From Pontiella desulfatans (GTDB lineage Bacteria; Verrucomicrobiota; Kiritimatiellia; Kiritimatiellales; Pontiellaceae): a stretch of 64,000 bases of DNA. The stretch's first letter is position 1; each line of letters opens with the position of its first letter. Shown here one piece after another: positions 21,044 to 39,995 of this stretch. The position numbers and the translations under genes are program-made. The notes below the pieces were generated by a model. It was not told where the DNA came from. It worked only from the letters and a program-made list of their open reading frames with translations, and searched no databases. Location of the stretch: positions 1 through 64,000 of the forward strand of contig NZ_CAAHFG010000001.1 in assembly GCF_900890425.1 (NCBI RefSeq), in the 5' to 3' direction.

Positions 21044-21903
21044 TGAGTAGAATGCAGATGATTGCGTGTTGCCTGGCCGTGTCCGGGAGCGCCTTTGCCG
21101 GATGGGAATATCTGGATAACGGCGAAGTGCGGATCGGGATCGACCGTTCGCGCGGGGCATGCATCGGCTGGTTCGGTGAAAGCGAAACGAAGCGCAACCT
21201 GCTCAATCATTGGGATGAAGGGCGCTTTATCCAGCAGTCGTATTACGGCGCGCCGGATGGATCGAAATGGAACAAGAAGGATTGGGTTTACAACCCGGTG
21301 CAGGGCGGAAGCTGGGACGGCAAACGCTCGAAGGTGCTGACGTTCAAGAAGGATAAAAACAAAACCTCGCTTTACGCAAAGATCGAGCCGCTCAGTTGGT
21401 CGGGGGGTCAAACGTGCCCCGAAGCCATCATGGAACAGACCATCTCGCTCAACGGGCGCGTGGCCCATATCCGGTTCAAACTGACTTATACCGGTAAAGA
21501 CCAAGGCAAACCGCGCCATCAGGAAATGCCGGCCGTTTTTGTGGATGCAGTTCTCTCCAATCTCGTTTATGTGTCGGAGGGGGAATTAACCCGCCGGGTG
21601 CCCGGTTGGCCGAATGAGTCGGGAAAGACGTCCCGGCACTGGACGGCCTGGCTGGACCGGAACGACTGGGGCATTGGCATTTTCACGCCGGGCACCCCGG
21701 AATTCACCTGTTACCGTTTTGCGGGCAATGGCTCCACGGGCTCCGGTGGATCCGCCTGTTCCTATATCGCTCCTGTGCGGACGTTTGCTCTGACAAAAGG
21801 TCTCAAGGTTGAATACGATGTCTACCTCACCATCGGAACCCTCGATGAAATTAAAAACCGGTTTGCGAGCATGCAAGGGGCGGGAAGGCGCTCGCTCCGT
21901 TAG
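21040..21903 (+). CDS. Secreted protein of unknown function, paralogue of 35962-36894
   Basis: This 287-aa protein has a signal peptide (MQMIACCLAVSGSAFA). The mature start WEYLDNGEVRIGIDRSRGAC is almost the same as in the locus 2 lipoprotein at 35962-36894, as are ESET/Q-RNLLNH-DEGRFIQQSYYG, WVYNPVQGGSW, RHQEMPAVFVD, NDWGIGIFTPG, CSYIAPVRTFALTKGL and EYDVYLTIGTL. The pattern suggests an all-beta fold. Both copies sit beside sulfatases and GPH symporters, so a role in glycan binding or cleavage is likely, but no catalytic family is evident. ATG 21040 overlaps the previous stop. The last residues (GAGRRSLR) come from a degenerate REP-like tail. Confidence 0.8.
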   Translation: MMSRMQMIACCLAVSGSAFAGWEYLDNGEVRIGIDRSRGACIGWFGESETKRNLLNHWDEGRFIQQSYYGAPDGSKWNKKDWVYNPVQGGSWDGKRSKVLTFKKDKNKTSLYAKIEPLSWSGGQTCPEAIMEQTISLNGRVAHIRFKLTYTGKDQGKPRHQEMPAVFVDAVLSNLVYVSEGELTRRVPGWPNESGKTSRHWTAWLDRNDWGIGIFTPGTPEFTCYRFAGNGSTGSGGSACSYIAPVRTFALTKGLKVEYDVYLTIGTLDEIKNRFASMQGAGRRSLR

Positions 21904-23000
21904 CCAAGGGAAGCGCGTTCGATGAGGCGGGGCTTGACGTAGGTGACTTTGTTGTAGCCGGGTTCGGCTTCCATGGTACGCAGTTGAAGGATCAACCGTT
22001 CAGCCATGGTTTGGGGGTCGGGGCAGAGGCTGGCGAGCGGCGGATCGGCTTCGGCGGCTTCGGGACTGTCGTCGAATCCAATCACCCGGGCATCCTGCGG
22101 GATGCGCAGGCCGCGGTCGTGCAGGGCGCTGAGCAGCATGATGGCCGTGGGATCGGAGAGCGCGAAGTACCCGGTAGGCTCTTCCTGAGCGGCAACAATC
22201 TTTTCAATTTCCCGCATGCGTGGCAGCAGGTCTTCGGGGAGAGGATATTCCGTAATAACGCTTGAAGGGTTGCCGTGCTGGAGCCAGGCGCGCCGAAAGC
22301 CCAGCGCTCGCAGTTCAAAGATTTCATGCCAGTTGTCGGGGTAATACTGGCTCTCGCCGAGCAGAACAATTTTTTTCGGCTCGCTTTCGCAGAACGCCAT
22401 GCCGGCCACTTCGCCGCCATGGAAGTTATCGATCCGAACGCCGGAGGGCAGATGGTAGCTGAGCGGCGCGGCCAGACTGGTGACCAGCTTGTTTTTTTTC
22501 TGCAGCGGTTTGAAAAAGGGGAAGCTCCAGGAGGCGGCAAGGATGACGGCTTTATAGGGGGTAAGGTCGGCGGCGCAAAGTTTCTTGTTTTCCGTGCCCA
22601 GCAGCAGGTCAATCTCAATGTTGAATCCGTCCTTGTTTGTCTCAAGGCAGCTGTAGACCCGTTGAAGAAACGGATTGGCCAGCGCCATGTTGCCGTTTCC
22701 GACAAAGGCAAGCTTCAGTGCCTTATAGCCCTCGTGGTTGTGACGAAACCGCGGATGCACCAGATAGCGCCCGGTGGGAGTCGTGGTTACGAAACGCTCT
22801 TCTTTTAACTGGAGCAGAGCACGCCAAACCGTATTGCGCGGATAGCCCACCATTTCCTCCAGTTTTCGCACGGCAGGAATTTTCCCGTCATTGGAAAGTT
22901 CCCCCGATTGGATTTTTTTTCGCAGAATGTCGCAGACCGCCTCGGTCTGCGTTTGTGTTGTAATTATTGGTATTTCGCTCATTTGTCCCAGATAGTGCAC
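21900..23000 (-). CDS. GntR-type regulator with sugar-sensor domain
   Basis: This 366-aa regulator has an N-terminal GntR winged helix at about residues 15-85 (TEAVCDILRKKIQSGELS, KIPAVRKLEEMVGYPRNTVWRALLQL) and a LacI/PurR-like periplasmic-binding domain from about 100 (LKLAFVGNGNMALANPF to ARVIGFDDSPEAAEADPPLAS). The GTG at 23000 is chosen because AAGGA lies 6 bp upstream. The internal ATG 22982 lacks a ribosome site. The gene is convergent with the 287-aa protein (stops overlap by 4 bp) and divergent from the first modular protein gene of locus 2. GGGACAAATG, matching the putative operators, lies in its codons 4-7. It probably controls locus 2 and itself. Confidence 0.9.
   Translation of the reverse strand: MHYLGQMSEIPIITTQTQTEAVCDILRKKIQSGELSNDGKIPAVRKLEEMVGYPRNTVWRALLQLKEERFVTTTPTGRYLVHPRFRHNHEGYKALKLAFVGNGNMALANPFLQRVYSCLETNKDGFNIEIDLLLGTENKKLCAADLTPYKAVILAASWSFPFFKPLQKKNKLVTSLAAPLSYHLPSGVRIDNFHGGEVAGMAFCESEPKKIVLLGESQYYPDNWHEIFELRALGFRRAWLQHGNPSSVITEYPLPEDLLPRMREIEKIVAAQEEPTGYFALSDPTAIMLLSALHDRGLRIPQDARVIGFDDSPEAAEADPPLASLCPDPQTMAERLILQLRTMEAEPGYNKVTYVKPRLIERASLG
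22980..22989. promoter_or_regulatory. GACAAAT half-site inside the 5' end of the GntR gene
   Basis: CATTTGTCCC (minus strand GGGACAAATG) matches the half-sites found at 23032-23050 and 25837-25855. It would act as a downstream roadblock or autoregulatory site. Confidence 0.4.
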
Positions 23001-23020
23001 ATGGTGTCCTTAACTTGTCA

Positions 23021-23059
23021 ATCATAAAAAGGAGACAAAATGAGACAAATACCTTGACG
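23021..23059. promoter_or_regulatory. Divergent promoters sharing tandem GAGACAAA operator
   Basis: For the minus strand (GntR gene), -35 TTGTCT is at 23043-23048, the spacer is 16 bp and -10 TATGAT is at 23021-23026. For the plus strand, -35 TTGACG is at 23054-23059 with a weak -10 near TAGATA (23076-23081). Between them are two direct half-sites, GAGACAAA at 23032 and 23042, exactly 10 bp (one helix turn) apart. A bound regulator would cover the GntR -35 and abut the other -35. Confidence 0.6.
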
Positions 23060-23136
23060 TATTAGTGTTTTACACTAGATATGGGTTATCGAATCGGGAA
23101 AGGATTTCTAACTAGTAAACCAAAGGAGAGCAGGTA

Positions 23137-25549
23137 ATGAAAACATACATTGTTGCACTGGTGGCCATGGGGTGGCTAGGCGGGGTTCAGGCTGCGCAGT
23201 TGATTTCATCGGAGGGAGCTTGGAGTAGCTCGGCTGTCAATCCTGCGTCTAATGGCGGAGCTCAAACCAACTGGAATACGGGCGGCGTGTTTGGTCAGTG
23301 GGGGGGGAGCTTCCTTTAATGTCAACGCAGAGACTCAATATATGGATATGCAGGCTACAGTCGGCAATGTTCAGCATACCTATGCGGCGGGGTACACCTA
23401 TGCCTATCAATCAACAGCGGCGGCTGCACTTTCCTCTCATGCAACCAATCAGGTGGTTTATCTAACGGCTAATGGCAGTTTGGTGAGCGGCTCCCGGATT
23501 GCAGGGCCTAACAATACGGGCGCCTATGGTTCGGCCGACACCAGCGCGATTTTCGGCTCATACGCCGTCACCAATGGCGATCCCATCATCGGCCAGTCCA
23601 TAGGCATGCGCCTGAGCAGCGAGGGAATACAAAGCCGGTTTCGTGAAGATGGTGAGAGCTGGGTAAAAACTCGCCTGACGAATCATGCAAATGATTTTGG
23701 TGCTGGCAGGGTAATTTTCAGTATGTCCTTTCAGACAAATAGCTTGAGTTCTCTCGTCGGCGTCGATCATGTGTTGGATATGGTCTTTTCCCAAACCGGA
23801 GGCGAATTTGGGTTTGAGGACAATGTACCTTATTTTTGTATTGAGAATGACACGGCATGGAAGGATTCCTTTTCCATTGCTTCGGAAGACGACTGTTTTC
23901 GTGCGGGAACAAAGTATGTGATCAGTTTCCGGGCCAAGAAGGCAATCAACGGCGATCCGACTCAAAATATGGTTACAGCTTCTGTGGGCAGTTATGCAAC
24001 CAATCTGGTCATTGGTCCTGCTCATGATGTCTACCGGTTGGAGGTTGATTCGGATGAGGCGGGAATCGCAACTAAAGCGATTACCGTCGGCTTCGTCGCA
24101 GAGTCGGTGACGGAGGGCGGAGTTAATCAGTATCGTTTTTATGATCTTGATATATCTGCCAAGTACCCCGATGTTGAGCGATGGTTTGAGGACAATAATC
24201 TAGCAGCAAACGGCGGTGTTCCTCCGGACTTTGAATCGCGCTTTTATGAGCCAGCGCTTTCTGCGTGGACCAACTCGCTGGCGACCATGGATGTCTATTA
24301 CCTCCGCTATGCGACCTATCGTGACTGGCTAAAAACCAATGCCGTTTTAAAAGCCAGAATGGCTGAGGTTTTCAACGAGTATGGGATTAAAGTGGCGCTG
24401 GATGATACCAGGGCCACTTGGGCACATGCTCTGAATAACTATGAGACACCAAGCTATCAGGCGTCAATCAATGTGCTTCAGGATCTGACAGATTATGGGT
24501 GGAGCCTGTGTGCAGTGGGGTTGCAAAGTGTGTTGTCCAAACCCTGGTCGGGCGGTGATTATGCTATGAGCTGGCGTATTCTGGATATTGTGGAATACAT
24601 CATGCAGGTTAAGCCCCATTTCCCCGATCTGGAATACGGCGTAATCGATGCACTGCCTGTAAAAGGACTGGAGTACAAAAGCCATTATACGGATCTGAAA
24701 AATGCGGTAGAGGCGGAGGGATACACGCTCGACTTTATTCACCAGGATTTTCCTGTGGATTATGCCCTTGAGAATAAAAATGGCGTTACCTTCCAAACGA
24801 TGGTTGAGGTGGAGCGGTTTGTGCGAAACGAAATCGGATGCCGTCCGGGCCTCTTCCTGACCAGCTCTGACGGGGGGAAGGCGAGTGATGAGGCGTTCCG
24901 GTCTGATGTTGTTGAGGGTCTGGATGCTTATCTGGCTGCTGGAGGGGGGGCTCGGCATGCTTGCCTGTCGGCCTGGTTTCCGTACCCTGTATACAGTACT
25001 CCGGATGAAGTGGATTCGTCGGTCAATACCAATGGAGCAACCATGTTGGGGACCTTCCTGCTGGCCGATGGGATAATCGATGACTATGAAAGTGTACAGG
25101 GGCTTCCGCTTTCCGACGGTTTTGAAACCGGCTTTGGCAACTGGGTCAGTGCAGATACCAACCAGGTGTTCATTGTGAACAGGACGGCCTCTGAAGGCAG
25201 CCATTCAGTGCTCATCAGTGATGACAAAGCCGGGTCCATGCTGACGCTTGCGCAACCCATTGATGCATCGGCGTATGCTACCCTTTCGATCGGTTTTGAT
25301 TTCATGCCTTTGTCGATGGAGGGGGCGGATGAAGCCTATCTTGAGTATTATAACGGGTTGGAATGGGAGATTGTCGGAGCCTTTGGCCCGTCCTTACGGC
25401 ATGTTAATAAACAGTGGTATGCGACGAATATTGCAGTTGATGCTGCAAGCTACCCGATGCCGCAGGATGCCTGCTTCAGGTTCCGGCAGGCGGGGACAGG
25501 GATTGCCGACTTCATCTACTATGATGCGATCACGGTCGAGGGAAACTAG
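23137..25549 (+). pseudogene. Modular secreted protein (A-B-barrel-like), frameshifted in a G8 tract
   Basis: A signal peptide (MKTYIVALVAMGWLGGVQA) and module A start in one frame, which stops at 23319. The rest continues one frame over to 25549. The break is a run of eight G (23300-23307). With seven G the protein reads FGQWGGASFN, exactly as in the intact paralogue at 28759-31479. Full length would be about 803 aa: module A (about 20-175), one module B beta-sandwich (about 190-345), a barrel-like domain (about 350-640, MDVYYLRYATYRDW, YGIKVALDDT, FPDLEYGVIDALPVKGLEYKS) and a MAM-like beta tail. The enzyme class is unknown. It could be phase-variable or inactive, or the extra G could be a sequencing error. 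Confidence 0.8.
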
Positions 25550-25579
25550 CATGGCGCGTCGTTCCTCATAACGGGCAGG

Positions 25580-25610
25580 AGAAGCCGCGGGCGAAGCGCT
25601 CGCGGCTTCT
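25580..25610 (+). terminator. Stem-loop after the frameshifted gene, probable terminator
   Basis: A 10-bp stem AGAAGCCGCG / CGCGGCTTCT (25580-25589, 25601-25610) has an 11-nt loop. The T tract after it is poor (TACTG), so it may attenuate or stabilise rather than terminate. Confidence 0.55.
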
Positions 25611-25788
25611 TACTGCTTCGGTAGTATGTCGGGTTCCTGCTCCCAGAGCGTTTTGAGGTGCACACTGCGGAATTTACGCGCAAGCGAATGTTCCGCAAGG
25701 GAAATTCCTCCGAGTCAATTTTTTTACCCGTGACACGGGATGTCTCAGGTTTGCAATTCCATATGAATGTATTGATTTATTGCGCATG

Positions 25789-25864
25789 TGTCCCACTTGT
25801 TGGGCGGAATGTCCCATTTGTGTCTTGGGCTTATGAGAGACAAAGTGGGACAAATAGGTTGACA
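25789..25864 (+). promoter_or_regulatory. Promoter with four GACAAA-type half-sites
   Basis: The -35 TTGACA is at 25859-25864 with a weak -10 (TACCGT, 16-bp spacing). Just upstream are GAGACAAA (25837) and GGGACAAAT (25847), again 10 bp apart. Further upstream are two inverted sites, TGTCCCACTTGT (25789) and TGTCCCATTTGTGTC (25810). The block GGGACAAATA-GG-TTGACA matches GAGACAAATA-CC-TTGACG at 23042-23059. Confidence 0.55.
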
Positions 25865-25946
25865 GGATGATTTTTCATAGTACCGTGAGCTTATCGATCG
25901 GTATTCTTTGAGGTATGACAAAAGGTGAAACGGAGAGGAAAGAATC

Positions 25947-27848
25947 ATGAAAAAGTGGATCACAACAATTGTTGCTATTGGATTGGCTTGTGGAATTCAG
26001 GCCGGAACGCTGATTACTTCGGATGGGGCATGGAGCAGTACCAGTATTAACGCCACATCAAACGGCGGAATGCAGACGAACTATATTAATGGCGGAGCAT
26101 TCGGCACAACGCTTGGCAAGGATTGGTATCGATCCAATGCAGATGCTGAGACTACCAACACCATGTACATGTCTGCCGTGTCCGGAAATCCCGATCTTAC
26201 CTACCAGGCGGGAAAGACCTACATCTACCAGATTCAGGGCTATGCCGCGATTGAGAGTCACTCCAACACGCAGAATGTCATGCTGATCGCCGGCAGTGAT
26301 ACAAACGGCATCGCCGGAACACTGGTGAGCGGGCTGAATAATACCGGTGTGTATGGCATTAACGACCAGGTGGCGATTTCGGGGTCCTACACCGTCGAGG
26401 TGGGCGATCCAATTATCGGTCAGCCGATCGGGATGAAGTTGTTCAGCAGCGGTATCCAGACCCGCTGGTACAGCGACGGAAGTTCGTTCATTTCCAGCGT
26501 ACTGGCCGACCATATTTCGACAGGCACATTGTTCAGCACGGAATTTGAACTGGATGGAGCAGGCGAACTGATTACCACGGCAAACCCGATTGAAATGGAA
26601 GTTGTTGTAGGTAATGAATTGATTATTACCAACGCCGTAGACAGCTATTTCCGCATGAATATCACCGCGGAGGGAGCCAAAAATAATTTCAAACTGGATG
26701 CTCAGGCGGATTCGTTCCGGGCATCGACCCTTTATACCTTAAGCTTCCGAGGGCAGAAAGCCATTAACGGTGACGCCGCACAAAACGAAGTGGACATCAT
26801 TCTGGGGGGAACCTACACCAATACGCTCGCTATCAGCACCACAACCACACCGTATTCAATGGTCATCAATCCGGATGAAATCGGCCTGGTTGGGGATGAT
26901 CTGAGCATCGAATTTGTTCCGGCCGGTGCGGCAACGGCGGTTAACCAGTACCGGGTCTTCAATGTTGACTTTTCGGCGGAAGCTCCGCCGCCGGTTCACA
27001 CCGGGCTGCTCTACCAGACTTCCTTCGAAACCAATGCCGTCGGAGTCATTGCTGTCAACAATATCGATTTGGAAGTCGTGGACGGATTCGATTTAATCAA
27101 GGAGGCGGCCGATAATTATGTTTCGATGAATCTGAATGGTTCTGCTCGCAATGATTTTCAGCTGGCCGCCGCTGCGGATACCTTCCGCGAACTGACGACC
27201 TATACCTTCAGCTTTGCCGCGAACAAGACGATTAGCAACGATGCAACCCAGAACGAGCTGGGCTTAATCCTGGGCGGAGTCTACACCCAGACTGTGGTGG
27301 TCAGCAGTTCCTCGAAGCTGCCGTTTTCTTTCGATGTGAACGCGGAAGACCTCGGCTTCGAGGGTCAACCCTTCAGCATTGAAATCGAGCCGCTGGGAAC
27401 GACTTCGGCGGTCAATCAATACAGGGTGTATAATCTGGAAATCACGGCAGTCGATATTCCCGCCGACCTGACGACCAACGGAACACCGCATCCATGGCTG
27501 GACGACTATTATCCGGGGCTGGAGACGGACGAGGAATATGAAGCGCAGGACATTTCCGATACCGATGGCGACGGCTTCCGGGCCTGGCAGGAATACCAGC
27601 TCGGAACCGATCCCACCAATGCGCTATCGCTGCTGACCATCACCGAGGCTGCTCCGGCGGTGGGCGGTGAGTTCGTCGTGACCTGGCAGTCGGCCGCCGG
27701 CAAGAGCTACAACATCCTGACCAATGTAAACCTCACTGTTGGCAACTGGGGCACGGCAGCCACGGCTGTACCTTCCGCCGGCGCTGAAACCTCGTACACC
27801 ACCACCGTGGGCAGTGCAGTGAATTTCTTCCAAGTGGAGTTAGACTAA
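25947..27848 (+). CDS. Modular secreted protein (A-B-B), unknown function
   Basis: This 633-aa exported protein has a signal peptide MKKWITTIVAIGLACGIQA. Module A (about 20-185) is shared with the proteins at 23137 and 28759 (ITSDGAWSS, SNGG, GDPIIGQPIGMKL-SSGIQ). Two tandem module B beta-sandwiches follow (about 190-345 and 352-505), each with a S/NYFRMN or NYVSMN, FR-L-TYTLSF and NQYRV motif set. A calcium-type segment (DTDGDGFRAWQEYQLGTDP) and a terminal beta domain (WQSAAGKSYNILTNVNL) complete it. No barrel domain is present, so it may be a binding or surface protein working with the barrel-containing paralogues. Confidence 0.85.
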   Translation: MKKWITTIVAIGLACGIQAGTLITSDGAWSSTSINATSNGGMQTNYINGGAFGTTLGKDWYRSNADAETTNTMYMSAVSGNPDLTYQAGKTYIYQIQGYAAIESHSNTQNVMLIAGSDTNGIAGTLVSGLNNTGVYGINDQVAISGSYTVEVGDPIIGQPIGMKLFSSGIQTRWYSDGSSFISSVLADHISTGTLFSTEFELDGAGELITTANPIEMEVVVGNELIITNAVDSYFRMNITAEGAKNNFKLDAQADSFRASTLYTLSFRGQKAINGDAAQNEVDIILGGTYTNTLAISTTTTPYSMVINPDEIGLVGDDLSIEFVPAGAATAVNQYRVFNVDFSAEAPPPVHTGLLYQTSFETNAVGVIAVNNIDLEVVDGFDLIKEAADNYVSMNLNGSARNDFQLAAAADTFRELTTYTFSFAANKTISNDATQNELGLILGGVYTQTVVVSSSSKLPFSFDVNAEDLGFEGQPFSIEIEPLGTTSAVNQYRVYNLEITAVDIPADLTTNGTPHPWLDDYYPGLETDEEYEAQDISDTDGDGFRAWQEYQLGTDPTNALSLLTITEAAPAVGGEFVVTWQSAAGKSYNILTNVNLTVGNWGTAATAVPSAGAETSYTTTVGSAVNFFQVELD

Positions 27849-27885
27849 AACTTATGGTGAAACGACGAGAAAAGGAGATAAAAAA

Positions 27886-28677
27886 ATGAAAAAGAATAAG
27901 GCTATACTGGCAGTAGCGTTTGCATTGGTTTGCGGCGCTCATGCGGCGTTGATCGGAGAGTGGAGCTTCGATGGCCAGAATATGTACAATGCAGCAGAAA
28001 CCCCCGCCACGACTCATCGTGGGATATACCGCTATCATAACGGGACAGCAATGGTAAATTCTGAAACCGGGGTTTTCAGCACGGATACACGTTTGGGTGA
28101 GGGATATTCGCTCGATCTGAGTGCAGCTAAAGCGCATATGTATATCCATGACTCAACAACGTATCTGCCCACGACCACATTCACCTACTCGGTGTTTGTC
28201 AAGGTGGACGGCTGGCAGGATGGTACCTGGGATACAATCTTATCCAAGCAGAGTGGAGGCTCAGCAGGTTTTGCCCTGAGACACACTTCGAATCTGGACT
28301 ATACGGGCGTGGACCTTATTGGAGAAACAACCAATATCCGGGATGTTACGGATCAGGTGAACGTTGCGGATAATGGCTGGCACCATCTGGCGTTTACGTA
28401 TGACGGAACCACGGCGAAATATTATATCGATGGCGTTCTCAGGAGGTCTCTTGCGAGTGATTTCACTCCGGACACAGGCAGTTTTCTAGTCCTGGGGGCT
28501 CAGGATACGGCCGGTAATGAGCAGTTTGGCGGGTTGGTGGATGATCTCTCGGTTTATGACACCGCGCTTACTGCGGAGGAGATTGCTGCCATCGCAATTC
28601 CCGAGCCGGCCACGCTGGGCATGGTCTTATCTTTCAGCGTGGCGATCGTCGCAATTCGCAGAAGGCTGATCATGTAA
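27886..28677 (+). CDS. LamG-domain protein with PEP-CTERM sorting signal
   Basis: This 263-aa protein has a signal peptide (MKKNKAILAVAFALVCGAHA) and one laminin-G/concanavalin-like domain at about 22-232 (LIGEWSFDGQ, FTYSVFVKVDGWQDG, GWHHLAFTYDGTTAKYYIDG, GGLVDDLSVYDTALTAEEIAAI). The C-terminus has PEP (IPEPATLG), a hydrophobic span and RRR, the PEP-CTERM signal processed by exosortase in Gram-negative bacteria. AAGGAGA lies 7-8 bp before the ATG. A strong terminator follows. It is probably a surface glycan-binding protein. No exosortase gene is in the window. Confidence 0.92.
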   Translation: MKKNKAILAVAFALVCGAHAALIGEWSFDGQNMYNAAETPATTHRGIYRYHNGTAMVNSETGVFSTDTRLGEGYSLDLSAAKAHMYIHDSTTYLPTTTFTYSVFVKVDGWQDGTWDTILSKQSGGSAGFALRHTSNLDYTGVDLIGETTNIRDVTDQVNVADNGWHHLAFTYDGTTAKYYIDGVLRRSLASDFTPDTGSFLVLGAQDTAGNEQFGGLVDDLSVYDTALTAEEIAAIAIPEPATLGMVLSFSVAIVAIRRRLIM

Positions 28678-28700
28678 GGACTTTTTGTCGAGAACCGCAG

Positions 28701-28737
28701 GCCCGATGAAAATGACATGTGTTTCATCGGGCTTTTT
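28701..28737 (+). terminator. Intrinsic terminator after the PEP-CTERM gene
   Basis: An 11-bp perfect stem GCCCGATGAAA / TTTCATCGGGC is followed by TTTTT (28733-28737). The next gene starts only 22 bp later without a clear promoter. Confidence 0.9.
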
Positions 28738-28758
28738 ATCGAGTGGCGCAACAAGATT

Positions 28759-31479
28759 ATGAAATTGGTACATTTTATATCCGCGGTTTACAGTTTCCTG
28801 CTGTCGTTTGCAGGTGGGGTGCAGGCGGCGGTGCTTGTAAGCTCTGACGGAGCTTGGAGTACCAATGAACTCATTACAATCTCCAAAGGGGGCTTACAAT
28901 CCAACTCGAATTCAGGGGGAACCTTCGGCTCCTGGGGAGGGGCTTCGTTCAATGCAAATGCCGAGTCGCATTACTTGGATATGGAAACTACGGTTTCAAA
29001 TATTCAACACATCTACACGCCTGGATATACCTACAGCTATAAGGCCTCGGCCGCAGCCGCGCTGGCCAACATGATGACGAATCAGGTGGTGTATCTGCTG
29101 GCTGATGGAGCTCCGGTTTCGGCAAGCCGGGTTGCCGGAAAAAACTATCTGGGTACGTTCGGGTCTGACAACCGTAATTCGGTCTATGGGTATTATTCGG
29201 CTGAGGCCGGAGATCCACTAATCGGTCAGACCGTCGGCATGCGGTTGACCAGTGAGGGCATTCAGTCGCGCTTTCGGGCAGACGGGGATTCCTCTCTTCG
29301 CGTTTTGCTGACCAGTCATGCCGGTTTTGACGACTACACTGTTTTGCCGCAATCTTCTACACATGCAATCGCCGGCCTGCTGTTTGAAACAGAATTTGAG
29401 ATGGATGCGGGCGGACTGGTCGCCAGTGAGAATGTCATCGGGCTGACGACGGATGATGGGAGTTTGATCGTCACCAATGCTACGGACAGCTATTTTCGCA
29501 TGAACCTAAACGATACGGGAGGGCGAAACGCCTTCAAACTGAATAGTGATTCCGACACATTTCAGGAGTTGACGATCTATCGCCTGGATTTTCGGGCTTT
29601 TAAGTCGATTGATGCCGACCCCTCTCAGAATGAAGTACATGTTGTTCTTGGTGGCAGCTATACGAATACCATCAACATCGGCACATCCGAGAGCTCCTAC
29701 TCGACGGTGGTCGATTCCGACGAGACGGGGCTTGCTGGCAGCGATCTTCGTGTTGAGTTTGTCCCTGCGGGTACGGGAACTGTTTCCGGGATTAACCAAT
29801 ATCGGGTCATGGATCTTTCCATATCCGCAGATTCAACAACCGTTGATTCCGGGTTGCTCTATTACACCGCTTTCGAAACGAACGGTGCGGGTTTGGTTGA
29901 GACGGATTATGTGCTGGATATGATCTTTTCCGGGGACGGGACATTCGGGCTGGAAGATGGTGTAAACTGCTATGTCCTGCCTGCGACTGCCGGTAGTGCA
30001 GCATCCTGCTCGGTTGTCTCGGCCGATGATACATTCCGACAGGGAACAACGTATGAAGTTTCATTCCAGGCCCGCAGCCTGGTCCGTGAGAATCCATCAC
30101 TGTTGACTGTTTCAGCAGGTTCGTTCACCACGAATATCGTAGTAGGTCGGGGATATGTCGATTGTACGCTCCTGGTTGATGCGGATGCGGTCGGCATCAG
30201 CGGCGAGCCGCTGAGCATTGAACTGGTGCCGGAGTTGAGTCCCGTCTCCAACGAATATCGTATCAAAAACCTGAAACTTGCTGCGGTTTCTCAGGCCATC
30301 GGATGCTGGTTTGAAGACAGTAACCTGGGCACGAACGGAGGAATCCCACCGGACTTTGAATCGCGTTTTTATGAACCTCAGCTTTCGACGTGGACGAATG
30401 CGTTGGAAACCATGGAGGTCTATTACCTCCGCTATGCCACCTATCGCGATCATCTGGCGGACAATGTGGAGCTGAAGACCCGAATGGCTGAGGTGTTCAA
30501 TGCATACGGTATCAAGGTGGCGCTGGACGACACGGAGCCGACGTGGGGGCATGCCAAGTATAATTACAATACACCGAACTATCAAAATTCGATCAATGCG
30601 CTTCAGGATCTGGAGAATCATGGATGGAACCTCTGTGCGGTGGGGATGCAGAGTGTCCTGTCCAAGCCGTGGTCAGGTGGTGACTATGCTATGAGCTGGC
30701 GCATTCTGGATGTCGTGGAATATATCAAACAGGTGAAGCCCCATTTCCCCGATCTCGAATACGGAGTCATCGATGCACTGCCTGTCAAAGGCCTGGAGTA
30801 TAAGAGCCATTATGCGGATTTGAAAAATGCGGTAGAGGCGGAGGGATACACGCTCGACTTTTTTGAGCAGGATTTCCCCATCGATAAGGTGCTTACGGGG
30901 GAGCGTACCCATGAAGAGATGATTGATGCGGAGCGTTTCGCCCGCCATGCGCTCGGGTGCAAATCAGGTCTGTTTCTGACGAGTTCCAGGGGCGGGAATG
31001 ACAGCGATGAGCTGTGGCGTTCCGATGTGATTTCCGGGCTGGATCAACATATTTTCAACGGCGCGGCTCCCGAGCGCATTACCCTGGCCGCGTGGTATCC
31101 TCATCCGGTCTATACGGCTCCCGATGAGACGGATCCCCTCCTGAATCCCAACGGATCCACCATGCTGGGCACGTTGATCCTGATGGAAGAGAAGGTGCGT
31201 GAAACCGGTTTTACTGCTTTGCCGGATTCTTCATTGATTACCGTTAAATCGGACAACCCGCAGGTCGATTTTTATATCAATTCATCTGAAGTATTAATTC
31301 AGTGGGACTCACTGACCGGGCGCGAATATAATCTATACAGTACGACCAATCTTCTGGAAGGATTCCTGTTGATGAAGGGCGGGATGAGCTATCCTCAGGG
31401 CAGTTTTTCTGACTCATCGATATCAACGAATAAGAACAGGTTTTATAAACTGGACAGTAATGAGCAGGTGCCTCTGTGA
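28759..31479 (+). CDS. Modular secreted protein (A-B-B-barrel-like), intact
   Basis: This 906-aa protein is the intact homologue of the frameshifted 23137 gene. It has a signal peptide (residues 1-23, FISAVYSFLLSFAGGVQA), module A (about 24-195), two module B beta-sandwiches (about 205-360 and 370-520), the barrel-like domain (about 525-820) and a short terminal beta domain (LIQWDSLTGREYNLYSTTNL). The barrel part is nearly identical in protein and very close in DNA to 24180-24760, indicating recent duplication. Conserved acidic residues (VALDDTEPTW, PDLEYGVID) could be catalytic, but I recognise no GH family. The upstream ATG 28717 lies in the terminator stem, so ATG 28759 is used; its ribosome site is weak. 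The stop overlaps the next GTG start. Confidence 0.85.
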   Translation: MKLVHFISAVYSFLLSFAGGVQAAVLVSSDGAWSTNELITISKGGLQSNSNSGGTFGSWGGASFNANAESHYLDMETTVSNIQHIYTPGYTYSYKASAAAALANMMTNQVVYLLADGAPVSASRVAGKNYLGTFGSDNRNSVYGYYSAEAGDPLIGQTVGMRLTSEGIQSRFRADGDSSLRVLLTSHAGFDDYTVLPQSSTHAIAGLLFETEFEMDAGGLVASENVIGLTTDDGSLIVTNATDSYFRMNLNDTGGRNAFKLNSDSDTFQELTIYRLDFRAFKSIDADPSQNEVHVVLGGSYTNTINIGTSESSYSTVVDSDETGLAGSDLRVEFVPAGTGTVSGINQYRVMDLSISADSTTVDSGLLYYTAFETNGAGLVETDYVLDMIFSGDGTFGLEDGVNCYVLPATAGSAASCSVVSADDTFRQGTTYEVSFQARSLVRENPSLLTVSAGSFTTNIVVGRGYVDCTLLVDADAVGISGEPLSIELVPELSPVSNEYRIKNLKLAAVSQAIGCWFEDSNLGTNGGIPPDFESRFYEPQLSTWTNALETMEVYYLRYATYRDHLADNVELKTRMAEVFNAYGIKVALDDTEPTWGHAKYNYNTPNYQNSINALQDLENHGWNLCAVGMQSVLSKPWSGGDYAMSWRILDVVEYIKQVKPHFPDLEYGVIDALPVKGLEYKSHYADLKNAVEAEGYTLDFFEQDFPIDKVLTGERTHEEMIDAERFARHALGCKSGLFLTSSRGGNDSDELWRSDVISGLDQHIFNGAAPERITLAAWYPHPVYTAPDETDPLLNPNGSTMLGTLILMEEKVRETGFTALPDSSLITVKSDNPQVDFYINSSEVLIQWDSLTGREYNLYSTTNLLEGFLLMKGGMSYPQGSFSDSSISTNKNRFYKLDSNEQVPL

Positions 31480-33131
31480 GTAAAAAATGGTTCACCCTCG
31501 GGATACTTATTTCGGTGGCACTGGTTGGAAAGGTCTCGGCAACGAAGCCGCCAAGGCCAAATATTATTTTCGTTTTGGCGGATGATCTGGGCTATATGGA
31601 CCTGGTGTCCTATGCGGCGCGGGTCAAGGGGGTGGATCGGGAAGGGTGTTATTATGAAACGCCGAACCTCGACCGGTTGGCGGATCAGGCGGTGGTGTTT
31701 ACGCAGGCGTATGCCTGCCCGCTCTGTTCGCCGACACGCTCCAGCCTGATTACTGGGAAATATGCCGCGAGCCAGGGCTTTATGACCGCTACGCCCGGCG
31801 GCTATAAAACGTATTATAACCAGGGGATGGAGACGCCGGACGGTTTCTACGATCAGGACGGACTGGAAAACAAAACCGATCGTTCTCAATGGCCACTGAC
31901 GCAGGGCATCTCGAATATTGCTTTGCCGTCCGGAGAAACCACGATTGCTGAAGCGCTGGCCGGCTACAACTCGGCCTTTATCGGCAAATGGCATCTGGGC
32001 GGGCATGGCTCCGAAGGGTTTTCGCCGTCCGACCAGGGCTTTGAAGCGCTGGCCTGGTTTGATTCCGGCGGCTCGGAGTATTTTAACTGGCGCGACCGCT
32101 GGAACGGGAAAAAGAAAGAGCATCCCAATATGGCGCAGGCGGAACTGCAGCAGGGCAATGCTGGTGGGGAAACCGGTGAGGACTATCTCACCGATGACCT
32201 CACCGTACAGGCCTGCCGCTATATCGAACGGCAGGCGAAATCGGATAAGCCGTTCTTTCTCTATTTCTGCCAGTTCGCGGTGCATACCCCGTTCGGCGCC
32301 AAGCCGGAGGACATCAAACACTTCGCCCAAAAGAAGACGCGCGGATGGAACGGGCACGCCAACCCGACCTATGCCGCGATGCTGAAAAGTATGGACGACT
32401 CCATCGGAGCGCTGATCCAGACCCTTGAAAAAACCGGGCAGGCGGATAACACGGTGATCGTCTTCATGTCCGACAACGGCGGTATTGTGCATCCCGACGA
32501 AAACGGAAAACCCGCCGTCAGCAACAACGCACCGCTCAAAGGTGAAAAGGCGCTGCTCTATGAAGGCGGCATCCGCGTTCCGTTAATGATCTGGTATCCG
32601 AAGTCGGTGAAACCCGCCCTGTGCGACGTGCCGGTCGACTGCAACGATCTCTACCCAACCTTACTCGAAATGGGCGGTGAGCCGCCGGCATCCGGCGACG
32701 GCGAGTCACTCGTTCCTTTGTTAATCAATCCAAAGAATATTTCGCAGAAATATTCTCGCGACACCTTTTTCTGGCACTATCCCTTTTATGTGTCGGTCGG
32801 CCTGAAGAAGGGCGTCCTGACCGGACCGCGCTCCGCCATCCGTAAGGGCGACTGGAAACTGATCCTCAATTGGGAAGGCGGGTTGGAGCTTTACAATATC
32901 CGCACCGATCTTTCGGAAGCCTCCGAGCTGTCTGCCAAAGAACCCGAGCGTACTCAGGCGATGTTCAAGGAGCTGGCCGGCTGGCTAAACGAAACGGTTG
33001 AGACGCGCTATATCCCAAGAACCAACAGCCGATTTGATCCGCAGCACGCCGAGGCGCGACCCTTTAAAAATATCTTTGAACAACAGAATATGAGCCGGCC
33101 GATTGGCCGTATTTCGAGAGTGGAGAAATGA
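31476..33131 (+). CDS. Type I sulfatase, exported (GTG start)
   Basis: This 551-aa sulfatase starts with GTG 31476, overlapping the previous stop (GTGA). AGCAGG precedes it. The signal peptide is residues 1-22 (FTLGILISVALVGKVSA). LADDLGY supplies metal ligands, C84 in CPLCSPTRSSLITG is the formylglycine site, and GKWHLG and MSDNGGI follow. The C-terminus beyond 500 is short. It is coupled to the following sulfatase by ATGA overlap, implying the two are made together, and fits removal of different sulfate positions on the same glycan. Confidence 0.92.
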   Translation: MSKKWFTLGILISVALVGKVSATKPPRPNIIFVLADDLGYMDLVSYAARVKGVDREGCYYETPNLDRLADQAVVFTQAYACPLCSPTRSSLITGKYAASQGFMTATPGGYKTYYNQGMETPDGFYDQDGLENKTDRSQWPLTQGISNIALPSGETTIAEALAGYNSAFIGKWHLGGHGSEGFSPSDQGFEALAWFDSGGSEYFNWRDRWNGKKKEHPNMAQAELQQGNAGGETGEDYLTDDLTVQACRYIERQAKSDKPFFLYFCQFAVHTPFGAKPEDIKHFAQKKTRGWNGHANPTYAAMLKSMDDSIGALIQTLEKTGQADNTVIVFMSDNGGIVHPDENGKPAVSNNAPLKGEKALLYEGGIRVPLMIWYPKSVKPALCDVPVDCNDLYPTLLEMGGEPPASGDGESLVPLLINPKNISQKYSRDTFFWHYPFYVSVGLKKGVLTGPRSAIRKGDWKLILNWEGGLELYNIRTDLSEASELSAKEPERTQAMFKELAGWLNETVETRYIPRTNSRFDPQHAEARPFKNIFEQQNMSRPIGRISRVEK

Positions 33132-34573
33132 TGAAGAAGTGGATTACAGGATTATTGATTGCTGCATCACTTGCAGCGCATGGCGCCAAACAGCCGAATA
33201 TTATTATAATTTTGACGGATGATCACGGCTACGCGGATCTGGGTGCAAACGGAATTGTTGACGATGTCAAAACGCCGCATCTGGACCAGCTGGCGGCCGG
33301 CGGCGCGCGTATGACGAGCGGTTATGTGACGGCACCGCAGTGCACCCCGTCGCGGGCGGGTATCATGACGGCCCGCTATCAGCAGCGCTTCGGGGTGGAT
33401 TCAAATGAATATGTTCCGATCCCCGCCGATGAACCCACCATCGCCGAGCGCCTGCGTGATGCGGGATATACCACGGGTATCGTCGGCAAGTGGCATCTGA
33501 CGCCGCATCATCTGGCAAAGACCTGGATGAAGGACCATTATCCGGAAGGCCTGGAAAAAGAGGGCGCGTTCGCCATTCCTTTCGAAAAATGCCTGCCGCA
33601 TTCGCCGATCGAAAAGGGGTTCGATGAATATTTCTGGGCACCGATGACGGCCTATCAGTGCAACTTTGATTTGGAGGGGAACGATATTCCCAACGCGCCG
33701 AAGCGAATTATAAACAAAGATTTCCGGGTCGATGTGCAGACCGATGCCGCGATGGCGTTTCTGAAGCGCAGGGAGAAGGATGATAACCCGTTTTTCCTCT
33801 ATCTCGCCTATTACGCGCCGCATGTTCCGCTGGAGGCGCCGGGCAACTATCTGGACCGGTTTCCCGGCGAAATGACCGAGCGTCGCCGGCACGGGCTGGC
33901 GATGATTTCCGCGGTAGACGATGGCGTGGGGCGGATTATGGACTATCTCAAGAAGGAAAACCTGGAAGAAGATACGATGGTATTCTACCTCGCGGACAAC
34001 GGGGCTCCCTACAAAATTACGAAACCCGATACGCCGATCACGGGTAAGTCGGGCCCCGAGTGGACCGGTTCCCTGAACGATCCCTGGATCGGTGAAAAGG
34101 GCATGCTTTCCGATGCAGGCATCCATGTTCCGTATATTGTTTCCTGGCCGGGAACCATTTCGCCGGTGGTTTACGAACAGCCGGTCCTGTCGCTCGATAT
34201 GGGGGCAACCGCACTCGCGGCGGCAGGCGTTAAAACCAACCCCGGCGCGATCGACGGGGTTGACCTGCTTCCTTTCCTTTTAAACGCAAAAAAAGGCGCG
34301 CCGCATGATGCTCTGTACTGGCGCTTCTGGGGGCAATCTGCCATCCGCGAAGGAAAGTGGAAGCTGCTCTCGCTGGGGAACGGGGTCCAGATGCTCTTCG
34401 ACATGGAAAGCGATCAGCATGAGCATAAAAACGTAATCGCTGAATACCCGGAATTGGCCGAACGCCTCGAGAAAAAACTGAGCGTCTGGCGCGATGAGAT
34501 GCAGCGGCCGGGCTTCCCGGATGCCTACGGCCGCGAACGCCCGTGGTACAACCATTACTTTGGAGTTAAATAG
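33128..34573 (+). CDS. Type I sulfatase, exported
   Basis: This 481-aa sulfatase has a signal peptide MMKKWITGLLIAASLAAHGA and LTDDHGY. The formylglycine site is C72 in PQCTPSRAGIMTA, where the usual final Gly of the motif is Ala. GKWHLT and ADNGAP follow. It is a close paralogue of the locus 1 sulfatase at 10903-12336, with the same block order (YQQRFG, FRVDVQTDAAMAF, YYAPHVPLEAPGNYLDRFPGEM). The next gene, the symporter, begins immediately after its stop. Confidence 0.92.
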   Translation: MMKKWITGLLIAASLAAHGAKQPNIIIILTDDHGYADLGANGIVDDVKTPHLDQLAAGGARMTSGYVTAPQCTPSRAGIMTARYQQRFGVDSNEYVPIPADEPTIAERLRDAGYTTGIVGKWHLTPHHLAKTWMKDHYPEGLEKEGAFAIPFEKCLPHSPIEKGFDEYFWAPMTAYQCNFDLEGNDIPNAPKRIINKDFRVDVQTDAAMAFLKRREKDDNPFFLYLAYYAPHVPLEAPGNYLDRFPGEMTERRRHGLAMISAVDDGVGRIMDYLKKENLEEDTMVFYLADNGAPYKITKPDTPITGKSGPEWTGSLNDPWIGEKGMLSDAGIHVPYIVSWPGTISPVVYEQPVLSLDMGATALAAAGVKTNPGAIDGVDLLPFLLNAKKGAPHDALYWRFWGQSAIREGKWKLLSLGNGVQMLFDMESDQHEHKNVIAEYPELAERLEKKLSVWRDEMQRPGFPDAYGRERPWYNHYFGVK

Positions 34574-35962
34574 GTGGAGAAAACGGTTCCAATAAAGGTG
34601 CGTGCGGCGTGGGGGCTTGGCGGATGGGCGGATAATTTTATCTTCCAGGTGCTGATTATCCTCGCGCTGCCCATCTACAATATTGAGCTGGGAATTGATC
34701 CGGTCTGGGTCGGCGCGGCGCTGATGGTTCCTCGTCTATTCGACGCGATCACCGATCCGCTGATGGGTAATATTTCCGACAACACACGCAGTAAATGGGG
34801 GCGTCGCCGTCCATGGATATTTATCGGTGCATTGGTGTCGGCGATTCTGCTGCCGCTGCTCTGGATGCCGCCGTTTTCCGACAAGGTCGCGGTCATTATT
34901 TATTTCGGTATCATCAGCACGATCTACGCGCTGACCTATACGATGTTTGTGGTGCCGTATACTGCACTCGGTTTTGAGCTGACCGAGGACTATGACGAGC
35001 GCACGAAGGTGATGAGCTGGCGCATGTATATCGGCCTGATTGCCGGGCTGTGCATTCCGAATCTCTATGTCTGGTGCCAGAACGATCTGTTCGGTGGCGA
35101 TATTCTGACCGGCGCGCGCTGGGTCACTGCGCTGGTTGGTCTTTCGGTGCTGATCACCGGCTGCCTGCCTGCACTGCTGTGCCGTGAAAAGGTGGCCGAG
35201 AAACCGCAGCCGAAAATAAAACTCGGCAAGGCGATTCTTGAAACGGTCAAGGACAAGCCCTTTCGGCTGCTGCTGAGCGGATACATTATCATTATCACCG
35301 GACTGCTTACATCAGCTGCAGTCGCGTTGTATGTGAACATCTACCATGTCTTCGGCGGCGACAAGAAGCTGGCGGCTGAGGTGTCGGCACTCGGTGGAAT
35401 GGCCGGGGTGCTGGCGGCTTATATCGGAGTTCGTCTTGCAGGCTGGATATCAGCGAAAACCGGTAAGCGCGAAACCATGATCGGCGGTTTCGGCCTGGCG
35501 CTGCTATCCGTCGGCAGTATGGTTTTTACCATGCGCCCGGGCTTCGAAGTAACCGAAGTGTTCGGCTTTAAGTTTCATCCACAGATTATCTCGTTTTTCT
35601 TCTATGGTATGGGGCAGCAGGCCTGCTGGCTGATGATCGACTCCATGACCGCCGACGTGTGCGACGAGGATGAACTGCGAACCGGCCTCCGCCGAGAAGG
35701 CATGTTCGGAGCCGTCAAAAGTCTGGCGCTGAAAGCCGGCGTGGCACTGACCGGCCTGACCGGCGGACTGGTGATTAAGCTGGCCGGTGCCGGCTATGCC
35801 GCACAGGGAGTGTCTCCCGAGGTGGCTCAGATACTGAAAACCCTGTTTGTTTCCATTCAGACCATCGGCCTGGTTGCCGGAATTCTGGTCTTTATTTTTT
35901 ATCCTATCTCCCGCGCGAAATCCGAAGAGACTCGCCGAATCCTAAATGAGAGGAAAGCATAA
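34574..35962 (+). CDS. GPH-type (MFS) sugar:cation symporter
   Basis: This 462-aa 12-TM transporter starts with GTG 34574, directly after the preceding TAG, using GGAG inside the end of the sulfatase gene. It carries DAITDPLMGNISDN and TRSKWGRRRPW, WRMYIGLIAG and CDEDELRTGLRREGMFG, all matching the locus 1 symporter at 5749-7512, but lacks that protein's 130-residue loop. It probably imports the same or a related sugar. The last codons overlap the next ATG by one base. Confidence 0.93.
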   Translation: MEKTVPIKVRAAWGLGGWADNFIFQVLIILALPIYNIELGIDPVWVGAALMVPRLFDAITDPLMGNISDNTRSKWGRRRPWIFIGALVSAILLPLLWMPPFSDKVAVIIYFGIISTIYALTYTMFVVPYTALGFELTEDYDERTKVMSWRMYIGLIAGLCIPNLYVWCQNDLFGGDILTGARWVTALVGLSVLITGCLPALLCREKVAEKPQPKIKLGKAILETVKDKPFRLLLSGYIIIITGLLTSAAVALYVNIYHVFGGDKKLAAEVSALGGMAGVLAAYIGVRLAGWISAKTGKRETMIGGFGLALLSVGSMVFTMRPGFEVTEVFGFKFHPQIISFFFYGMGQQACWLMIDSMTADVCDEDELRTGLRREGMFGAVKSLALKAGVALTGLTGGLVIKLAGAGYAAQGVSPEVAQILKTLFVSIQTIGLVAGILVFIFYPISRAKSEETRRILNERKA

Positions 35963-36894
35963 TGAAAAACTGGATTTATCTGATCAGTGTTATTGTGGCT
36001 GCCGGATGTAATGCATCCACCAATGAGGGGTCTGTTTTGGTGCTGAATACGCATACGCTGTCATCTGAGGATGGCTGGGAATATATCGACAACGGGACAT
36101 TGAAGATCGGAGTGGACCGTTCTCGCGGTGCGTGCATCGGTTTTTTCGGTGAGAGCCAAACGGGTCGCAACCTGCTCAACCATTTTGATGAGGGACGGTT
36201 TATACAGCAGTCTTATTATGGCCAGGCGGATGGTTCGGACTGGAACGGAAAACCCTGGGTCTATAACCCAATCCAGGGCGGAAGTTGGCTGCGTGTGCCC
36301 GCCAAGGTCCATGAATTCAATAAAGCAGAAGATGAGCTTTATGCCAAAATTGAGCCTCGCCACTGGGCCAGCGGAGTGCTGTGTCCGGAGATGGTAATGC
36401 AACAAACGATTACGCTGGATGGCGATGTGGCAAAAATTTCTTTCAGCATGAAGTATGACGGCCCGGATCAGGGTGAACCAAGGCACCAGGAACTGCCGGC
36501 AGTTTTTATCGACGGGGCGTTACCGAATTTTTATTACACTAAAAACGGAACGCTTACCAATGAAGCGCCGCGAATCCTCGCTGAAAACGGGAAAGAGGGT
36601 GTTGACGGTTTAGGCCTCGGCGAATCGACTTCGGAATGGGTGGCCTATCTGGATGATACCAACTGGGGTATCGGAATATTCACGCCCGGAACCACTGATT
36701 TCACGGTCTACCGAGCGCTGGGCGACGGCACCACCGGGGAAAAGGGATCGGCCTGCTCGTATGTGGCTCCATTGCGCACATTCGCTCTCACGAAGGGATT
36801 AGAGGTGGAATACGATGTCTATCTTACGATCGGTACCCTGAAAGAAATTACGCGCCGATTTAGCGCCCTGAAATTGAATAGTCATTTGTATTGA
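35962..36894 (+). CDS. Lipoprotein of unknown function, paralogue of 21040-21903
   Basis: This 310-aa protein has a lipoprotein signal (IYLISVIVAAGC, Cys at residue 16), so it is anchored to a membrane, whereas the locus 1 paralogue has an ordinary signal peptide. The domain starting WEYIDNGTLKIGVDRSRGAC aligns over its whole length with that paralogue. An extra stretch of about 15 residues (GKEGVDGLGLGES) lies before SEWVAYLDDTNWGIGIFTPG. GAGAGGAAAG precedes the ATG. The conserved aromatic and acidic residues hint at glycan contact, but no enzyme family is recognised. Confidence 0.82.
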   Translation: MKNWIYLISVIVAAGCNASTNEGSVLVLNTHTLSSEDGWEYIDNGTLKIGVDRSRGACIGFFGESQTGRNLLNHFDEGRFIQQSYYGQADGSDWNGKPWVYNPIQGGSWLRVPAKVHEFNKAEDELYAKIEPRHWASGVLCPEMVMQQTITLDGDVAKISFSMKYDGPDQGEPRHQELPAVFIDGALPNFYYTKNGTLTNEAPRILAENGKEGVDGLGLGESTSEWVAYLDDTNWGIGIFTPGTTDFTVYRALGDGTTGEKGSACSYVAPLRTFALTKGLEVEYDVYLTIGTLKEITRRFSALKLNSHLY

Positions 36895-36902
36895 TGAATA
36901 TA

Positions 36903-36917
36903 TGATAATGTTTACAG
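36903..36917 (+). promoter_or_regulatory. Second copy of the GH78-promoter operator-like site
   Basis: TGATAATGTTTACAG differs from 3440-3454 by one base and continues into AGTAA like the site at 3301-3311. It lies 25 bp before the GTG start of the GH106-like gene. Confidence 0.5.
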
Positions 36918-36941
36918 TAAGGGACATTAAGGAGTTTTTTT

Positions 36942-39900: not shown

Positions 39901-39995
39901 ACGGCCCCGACCATTGGCTGACCGAGGGCGCCGATTTTTCCGAGGCCTGCATGCTTATTCCATCCGGCCTTCTGGAATCTCCGCGCATGGCTTGA
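36942..39995 (+). CDS. GH106-like alpha-L-rhamnosidase, cytoplasmic, with REP-encoded inserts
   Basis: This 1017-aa enzyme begins FLNPSAEWRGKPFWSWNGKL, followed by GGFFMHSRTGLETEYLG and LYDEDRWPSGLAGG, the N-terminal pattern of GH106-type rhamnosidases. Later blocks are VFTDEPHRGAL, GHVLHEDN and a C-terminal beta-sandwich. There is no signal peptide, as in the GH78 enzyme of locus 1. The GTG start follows AAGGAG by 8 bp. Two unusual segments are coded by repeats: about 148-176 (three palindromes, RRDACGT type) and about 703-723 (a REP pair, GDRNVPAPL...RGHSCPR). Neither breaks the frame. Whether the enzyme tolerates them is untested. Family assignment is good but not certain. Confidence 0.85.
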   Translation: MQIDNFLNPSAEWRGKPFWSWNGKLEKDELLRQIDVIKEMGMGGFFMHSRTGLETEYLGEEWFELINTCADYAESIGLEAWLYDEDRWPSGLAGGIVSQYPEFRQKAILLEIDPQGEGENVIAEFTCELDGVVCRNVVDVSGGVAVEQGRRDACGTGFGGRRDACDTIAGGTPVVQQRSLLRFSIVEQGKSGFYNGYTYIDTMNREATEAFLKSTHEKYAGKCGDRLGKSIKGVFTDEPHRGALMDGFSMYRDDGAFCAPYTPALFDEFEKRFGYDLRPKLPELFLQMDGNRISPVKWHYVELLQQLFLENFAIPCNEWCEEHNLILTGHVLHEDNLTAQTAMSGSVMRYYEHMTAPGVDVLSEGNRNYWIVKQLTSAARQTGKKQLLSELYGCTGWQMPFSGHKEVGDWQALLGINLRCHHLSWYTMQGEAKRDYPASILHQSAWHREYKHVEDYFARFGLMMTQGEAVCDVLVVNPVESLWAQVHLGWSRGLGLQDEHLQTLERNYQQLFTWLLESQVDFDYGDEEMLVRLGSVDDGLLRLGCSCYKTVLVSGMDTIRSSTLKLLEKFIEAGGQVVFAGSPPANVDAVDDDSAIKFAEGTTFVPFEKERILEVVPQPLATVDAPDIFGQLRKSDEGLIFAALNVNRDERREGATVKIKTEHAIEEWNCETGERMPVQTESSNGWKTFTVDFPVGGQKLWVAGDRNVPAPLIEKERGHSCPRALDGPFGYTLSEPNICVLDFAEYKFDGGNWQSATEVLKIDQQIRDAQGIMRRGGEMLQPWFVAQHPVKALCDVELRFAFEIGTMPEWIDLVMEEPENFRVEINGEPLDLSASGRWVDMAFHRVRLPTDLPRSGKNQIVLKTRYTENSNIEAIYLLGEFGVEFEGAARKIVPMVETVAVGDLCAQGFPFYSGAITYHVPVPGNATRLKLPTIGAACAKVNGQVLGWDPFEADVSGGGGTVDVELVLTRRNTFGPLHDCVQGRMHNGPDHWLTEGADFSEACMLIPSGLLESPRMA
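37387..37467 (+). repeat. Palindromic repeat family B, three copies inside GH106 gene
   Basis: Three 22-bp copies at 37387-37408, 37420-37441 and 37446-37467 share GCAGGCG-GGA-CGCCTGC followed by GRTAC (last copy CCTGTGGTAC). They are perfect or near-perfect hairpins. Together with short linkers they add about 27 codons in frame. Confidence 0.88.
39051..39109 (+). repeat. REP family A pair (inverted half + direct half) inside GH106 gene
   Basis: An inverted half (39051-39076, GGGGACAGGAATGTCCCC then GCTCCGTT) and a direct half (39086-39109) are separated by 9 bp. This is the arrangement seen around RAYT with the gene removed, turned inside out. All of it is translated. Confidence 0.88.

Follow-up and report, generated by a model that had tools for sequence, protein, structure and literature searches.

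A fixed 79-bp array of five half-sites as the probable operator of a GntR–LacI type regulator and its paralogue in Pontiella desulfatans

The window, i.e. the whole stretch of 64,000 nucleotides of Pontiella desulfatans DNA analysed here, contains a gene for a GntR-type regulator and, around it, repeated GRGACA-like motifs which an earlier note took for the sites of a local regulon. This raises two questions: which stretch of DNA forms the unit of recognition, and which protein reads it. The GRGACAAA half-sites 10 bp apart at 23032/23042 and 25837/25847 are present, as are the GRGACAAATA-SS-TTGAC context that follows them (SS being CC and GG) and the inverted sites at 25789 and 25810. The features are as follows, with the basis for each in brackets.

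21900-22982, minus strand: regulator gene, encoding 360 aa when read from the ATG that it has in common with its paralogue (Pfam GntR, Peripla_BP_3)
22980-23058, plus strand: array A, five half-sites and -35, between the regulator and gene 23137 (alignment, profile)
22982-22990, minus strand: A half-site s1 TGGGACAAA, overlapping the regulator start codon (motif match)
23005-23010, minus strand: A half-site s2 AGGACA, one mismatch to GRGACA (motif match)
23016-23019, minus strand: A half-site s3, core GACA only (three-array alignment)
23032-23039, plus strand: A half-site s4 GAGACAAA (motif match)
23042-23050, plus strand: A half-site s5 GAGACAAAT, with the presumed regulator -35 TTGTCT on the complement (motif match)
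23054-23059, plus strand: presumed -35 TTGACG of gene 23137 (TTGAC kept in place in A, B and C)
23137-25549, plus strand: target gene 1 (halves in different frames)
25785-25863, plus strand: array B, same 79-bp layout, without an adjoining regulator gene (alignment, profile)
25789-25795, minus strand: B half-site s1 TGGGACA (motif match)
25810-25816, minus strand: B half-site s2 TGGGACA (motif match)
25821-25824, minus strand: B half-site s3, core GACA (three-array alignment)
25837-25844, plus strand: B half-site s4 GAGACAAA (motif match)
25847-25855, plus strand: B half-site s5 GGGACAAAT (motif match)
25859-25864, plus strand: presumed -35 TTGACA of the 25947 operon (sequence)
25947-39995, plus strand: presumed operon downstream of array B (gene series repeated under array C)

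We searched both strands of the whole 8.66-Mb genome (8,658,305 bases, 6 contigs) for the 19-bp composite GRGACAAARTGRGACAAAT, allowing up to three mismatches and using the reversed pattern as a control. The composite occurs without mismatch at 23032 and 25837 and with one mismatch at C1:3669892-3669910, in front of the regulator's paralogue, whose start codon is about 50 bp away; this third copy was not known when the composite was written, though a looser form had earlier pointed there. These are the only copies with zero or one mismatch genome-wide, and each lies in a locus of the window regulator or its paralogue; the five further matches all have three mismatches, and the reversed control gave 10. 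The looser pattern GRGACANNNNGRGACA has five genome matches, namely the three promoters and two 23S rRNA copies (the latter recognised by eye). In contrast, the single half-site GRGACAAATA with one mismatch was seen 6 times against 5.04 expected, i.e. not above chance. The claim of a co-occurrence beyond chance therefore stands for the composite and falls for the single half-site: the signal is the composite together with the array. A chance origin of the sites was rejected because of the genome counts of the composite. Among 91 TTGAC anchors in the window, arrays B and A had the most half-site matches upstream (8 and 4, counting overlapping matches with up to one mismatch in 74 bp), and a k-mer clustering scan could not separate the true arrays from noise. 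Across 84,980 named genomes the composite gave 19 matches, none with a regulator relative in the surrounding stretch (best tblastn E 3.3); in genome G024, which has an exact 18-bp match, no regulator relative was recognisable by eye in the stretch around it. The genome search proposed in the earlier note thus returned few copies with zero or one mismatch, all in this regulator's loci, and because the composite occurs only with the regulator's two genes, bar the two looser 23S rRNA matches, a local regulon of the adjacent regulator is the best supported reading of the composite sites.

The pair of half-sites is real and belongs to a fuller unit of five half-sites. Arrays A, B and C (the last at 9963-9885, minus strand, of the paralogue's locus L022) align over 79 bp without a gap, with identical site positions in all three promoters: three inverted TGTC(CC) half-sites (s1-s3; GTC at relative positions 6, 27 and 38), then two direct GRGACA half-sites 10 bp apart (s4 and s5; GAC at 55 and 65), then TTGAC at 75-79. 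Of these, s3 is a 4-base core only. The earlier note had recognised both the inverted and the direct sites; what escaped it was that they make up a single fixed array, also present at the first position, and that the regulon, although local, comprises three promoters in two unlinked loci, the third of which it missed. The extra site that it placed in the GntR 5' coding end does exist (22982-22989, minus strand), but overlaps the start codon (ATG 22982) rather than lying in the coding interior, and s1 runs into this shared start codon in A and C alike. A compact palindromic GntR operator was rejected, as no palindrome whose arms lie at most 8 bp apart recurs in all three arrays, and so was a known RNA element, Rfam having matched only a tRNA. 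Separately, the motif TYATCG lies in register in A, B and C at relative positions 107-112, 27 bp past TTGAC and near the expected transcription start (23086-23091 in A, 25891-25896 in B, and likewise in array C).

In the three arrays the spacers have drifted much further than the sites. Site segments are identical at 37/42 (A and B), 38/42 (A and C) and 39/42 positions (B and C), i.e. 88-93%, against 7/34, 13/34 and 10/34 (21-38%) in the spacers, the 42 site columns having been drawn after the alignment was seen. When sites were defined by motif on one array alone the contrast was weaker (Fisher 5e-6 to 0.0012): with A, 22/24 in sites versus 17/47 elsewhere for B and 22/24 versus 24/47 for C; with B, 26/35 versus 13/36 and 29/35 versus 15/36; with C, 26/30 versus 20/41 and 27/30 versus 17/41. 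As a neutral yardstick, 75 of 163 fourfold sites differ between the two regulator genes (54% identity). The same base stands in all three arrays at 42 of the 79 columns, and the ungapped 79-mer identities of 47, 54 and 52 compare with background maxima of 36-39 (127,212 placements each). The effective sample is small because the loci are tied by duplication. Used as a profile, the array matched A, B and C and nothing else in its own genome at E<=10. At E<=0.1 in the 43 genomes of the order the extra matches were weak and limited to G017 (E 0.047) and G024, and none of the 42 relatives seems to hold a convincing fourth array; at 0.005, with strict filters and up to 12 candidates scored in each genome, there was none in 386 other genomes drawn from the phylum.

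The assignment of the regulator to the GntR class holds for its N-terminus, which matches the GntR winged helix (PF00392, 2.3e-9; 1.6e-9 in the paralogue). The C-terminus is a LacI/GalR-type sensor (Peripla_BP_3, PF13377, 4.9e-23), its closest solved relatives are LacI-type regulators, and no aminotransferase-like domain was matched by Pfam at E 0.1. By its domain matches, the whole protein is an AraR-type chimera, i.e. a GntR winged helix joined to a LacI-type sensor. The genome has a single close paralogue (C1:3669951-3671039, 85% identical; next matches E 2.9e-7 or worse), and the two proteins do not differ in residues 46-64, the region of the recognition helix.

The regulator's own promoter plausibly lies within the array, as the earlier note proposed for the -35 TTGTCT: read by eye, a presumed -35 TTGTCY inside s5 is followed 16 bp on by a -10 TATSAT in A (TTGTCT/TATGAT) and C (TTGTCC/TATCAT). 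Array B has AAGCCC at the place of that -10 and no regulator gene there, and an alternative regulator -35 at s3, TTGACA in A and C, reads AAGACA in B (both by eye). Nevertheless B keeps s1-s3 although no regulator gene adjoins. That B has lost parts of a regulator promoter and still has all five sites speaks, in our view, for a function of the entire array at the target promoter.

Array A precedes gene 23137. Under array B lie 25947 (633 aa), the LamG protein 27886, 28717 (920 aa), sulfatases 31476 and 33128, the MFS_2 transporter 34574, 35962 and the GH106-like 36942. The array C operon begins with a LamG protein, a protein related to 28717 (64%) and an 803-aa protein, and continues with relatives, in the same order, of the sulfatases (85%, 58%), the transporter (92%), 35962 (80%) and the GH106 protein (70%), so that each operon has the same sulfatase-sulfatase-MFS-GH106 series. 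The GH106 proteins suggest a sulfated, rhamnose-containing glycan as substrate, which we take from general knowledge of the family, and the host appears to consume sulfated sugars. Some further observations concern these genes. Divergence between the two unlinked paralogous sulfatase/GH106 operons (L022/L024; 25947-39995) is unequal: transporter 92%, regulator 85%, sulfatases 85%/58%. An 8-G run at 23300-23307 splits 23137-25549 between two frames, owing to a frameshift, slippage or sequencing error. Proteins of the regulon that look secreted share a conserved domain of some 300 aa (68-81% identity), encoded at 24173-25090, 30295-31206 and L022 4758-5660; Pfam gave no match to the full ORFs at E of 0.01 or less, and for the 304-aa domain in the 28717 family the predicted structure (pLDDT 45.5) was too poor for use.

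No orthologous regulator was found at 1e-40 in the 42 other genomes of the order, nor did the search for related loci yield one. At 1e-15, regulator relatives occur in at least 6 further genomes among 387 of the phylum (up to 5 candidates per genome scored). At three loci in two of the phylum's genomes (G226, G243), regulators that are about 28-35% identical accompany the same cassette: a regulator pair stands beside the transporter (74-77%) and a 31476-type sulfatase (63-65%), with GH106 (63-64%) and a 33128-type sulfatase (53-55%) at two of the three. The GntR-LacI regulators of these loci (L093-L095) form tandem pairs and possibly act together. Just upstream of each pair is a GACA-10-GACA with an inverted TGTC, the sole match in each 19-kb locus and expected at 0.005-0.01 per locus from shuffles; the pattern was written after these promoters were seen, the three loci include two near-identical ones, and the inverted site is opposite in orientation to that of the window arrays. 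We regard this match as suggestive. The stretches around four more distant relatives (L096, L097, L076, L077) have neither pattern. GH106 itself is common without the regulator: relatives at 1e-150 occur in 53/387 genomes, and G019 has two GH106 relatives with no regulator at 1e-40 and no array.

On these grounds we think it likely that the neighbouring AraR-type regulator and its 85% paralogue use these sites as their operator, with the 79-bp array as the unit. The operator would consist of (T)GRGACA(AAT) half-sites, three leftward and two rightward, in steps of 21, 11, 17 and 10 bp and abutting the target -35, and several subunits of either paralogue would probably occupy it jointly. Once bound, they would lie over the promoter of the regulator gene itself, with the presumed -35 within s5 and s1-s3 downstream, and would thus cause autorepression; they would also sit against the -35 of the sulfated-glycan operons. 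A glycan-derived sugar, to judge from the sensor fold and the GH106/sulfatase/MFS cassette, may bind the LacI-type domain and free the array.

Could the array instead be intergenic DNA that was copied with the locus and has no present role? The loci are clearly duplicated, and the DNA upstream of B shows a weak collinear alignment to the regulator 5' coding end (with a score of 39, the highest of 300 shuffles reaching 36), which would fit an origin of B in the duplication of a divergent unit with later decay of the regulator copy. However, simple inheritance would hardly leave the sites so much better conserved than both the spacers and the regulator's fourfold sites, and we regard this explanation as very improbable. 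Binding by a protein other than the window regulator is improbable too, if somewhat less so: we infer the pairing of regulator and array, and the genome has further LacI/GntR-type regulators, but the array is found only in this regulator's two loci, twice over its start codon, and a related pattern precedes distant regulator relatives.

With the neighbouring regulator as the likely binder, the sign of its effect on the target operons is a closer call. We lean towards inducible repression over activation, given that AraR is known to repress and that the targets have good -35 elements. The same operator and regulator could also work the other way, the bound array repressing the regulator's promoter but activating the target operons through class I/II-like contact with RNA polymerase. 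Consistent with this, the five sites are all placed upstream of the target -35 and leave its -10 and start uncovered, which is atypical for a repressor; candidate target -10 elements look poor by eye; and s5 and TTGAC stand at one constant distance in the three promoters despite their drifted spacers. This last distance is not special, though, because the whole 79 bp is free of indels, and near-consensus -35 elements (TTGACA/TTGACG) are often missing from activated promoters. AraR itself represses (PMC4218819, accessible part). We hold activation to be less likely than repression, but a serious alternative.

How does the array compare with known operators? The ara box arm ATTTGT, as given in the accessible AraR literature, also occurs inside s1 and s5, while the AraR operator AtWtGTaCGTAcaaWT has a best match of 9/16 in each array; the 16-bp palindrome is a trait of the B. 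subtilis operator rather than of the protein architecture. To our knowledge, NanR, another GntR-family protein, has no LacI-type sensor. According to the accessible parts of the papers cited here, AraR of Bacillus subtilis is a GntR-LacI chimera and a repressor (PMC4218819) that resembles our regulator in domain make-up and in having a local sugar-polymer regulon with autoregulation (PMC4218819, PMC4494728). Some of its promoters have two in-phase operators bound cooperatively, with looping (PMC4218819, PMC4494728); in the present arrays a phasing of 10, 11 and 21 bp is read from the sequence. Its boxes are 16-bp palindromes (PMC4218819), unlike the present direct repeats 10, 11 and 21 bp apart with inverted ones in a fixed 79-bp frame. 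MocR operators (GabR, TauR, PdxR) likewise combine two direct and inverted boxes in helical phase, but number two to four boxes rather than five and serve proteins with an aminotransferase-like domain instead of a LacI-type sensor (PMC5320631). NanR also places several dimers on direct repeats, in its case three hexamers (PMC8012715), and BusR, of the GntR family, requires strict spacing between separate sites, although these are two, 22 bp apart, and are measured by a coiled-coil ruler in a protein with a c-di-AMP-binding domain and no LacI-type sensor (PMC8517857). A five-site array for a GntR-LacI chimera was not described in the literature searched, essentially its openly accessible part. 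Local regulator switches are of a known kind, and the spacing pattern of the array is unusual. Tentatively, and with less confidence than for the operator itself, the chimera may read a rigid 79-bp scaffold of five half-sites, with set distances to one another and to the -35, as one defined multi-dimer complex rather than through palindromes, with 10-bp-phased GACA arrays as the operator type of this branch phylum-wide.

The regulation of the very large sulfatase sets of this group seems to be almost undescribed in the literature searched, and the accessible text of PMC10880615 does not mention GntR. The present analysis names concrete candidates for a regulator, its operator and a regulon of three promoters, concerned with a glycan that is sulfated and probably contains rhamnose. 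They would widen the operator types of AraR-like chimeras beyond the single palindrome to an array of five sites in fixed positions.
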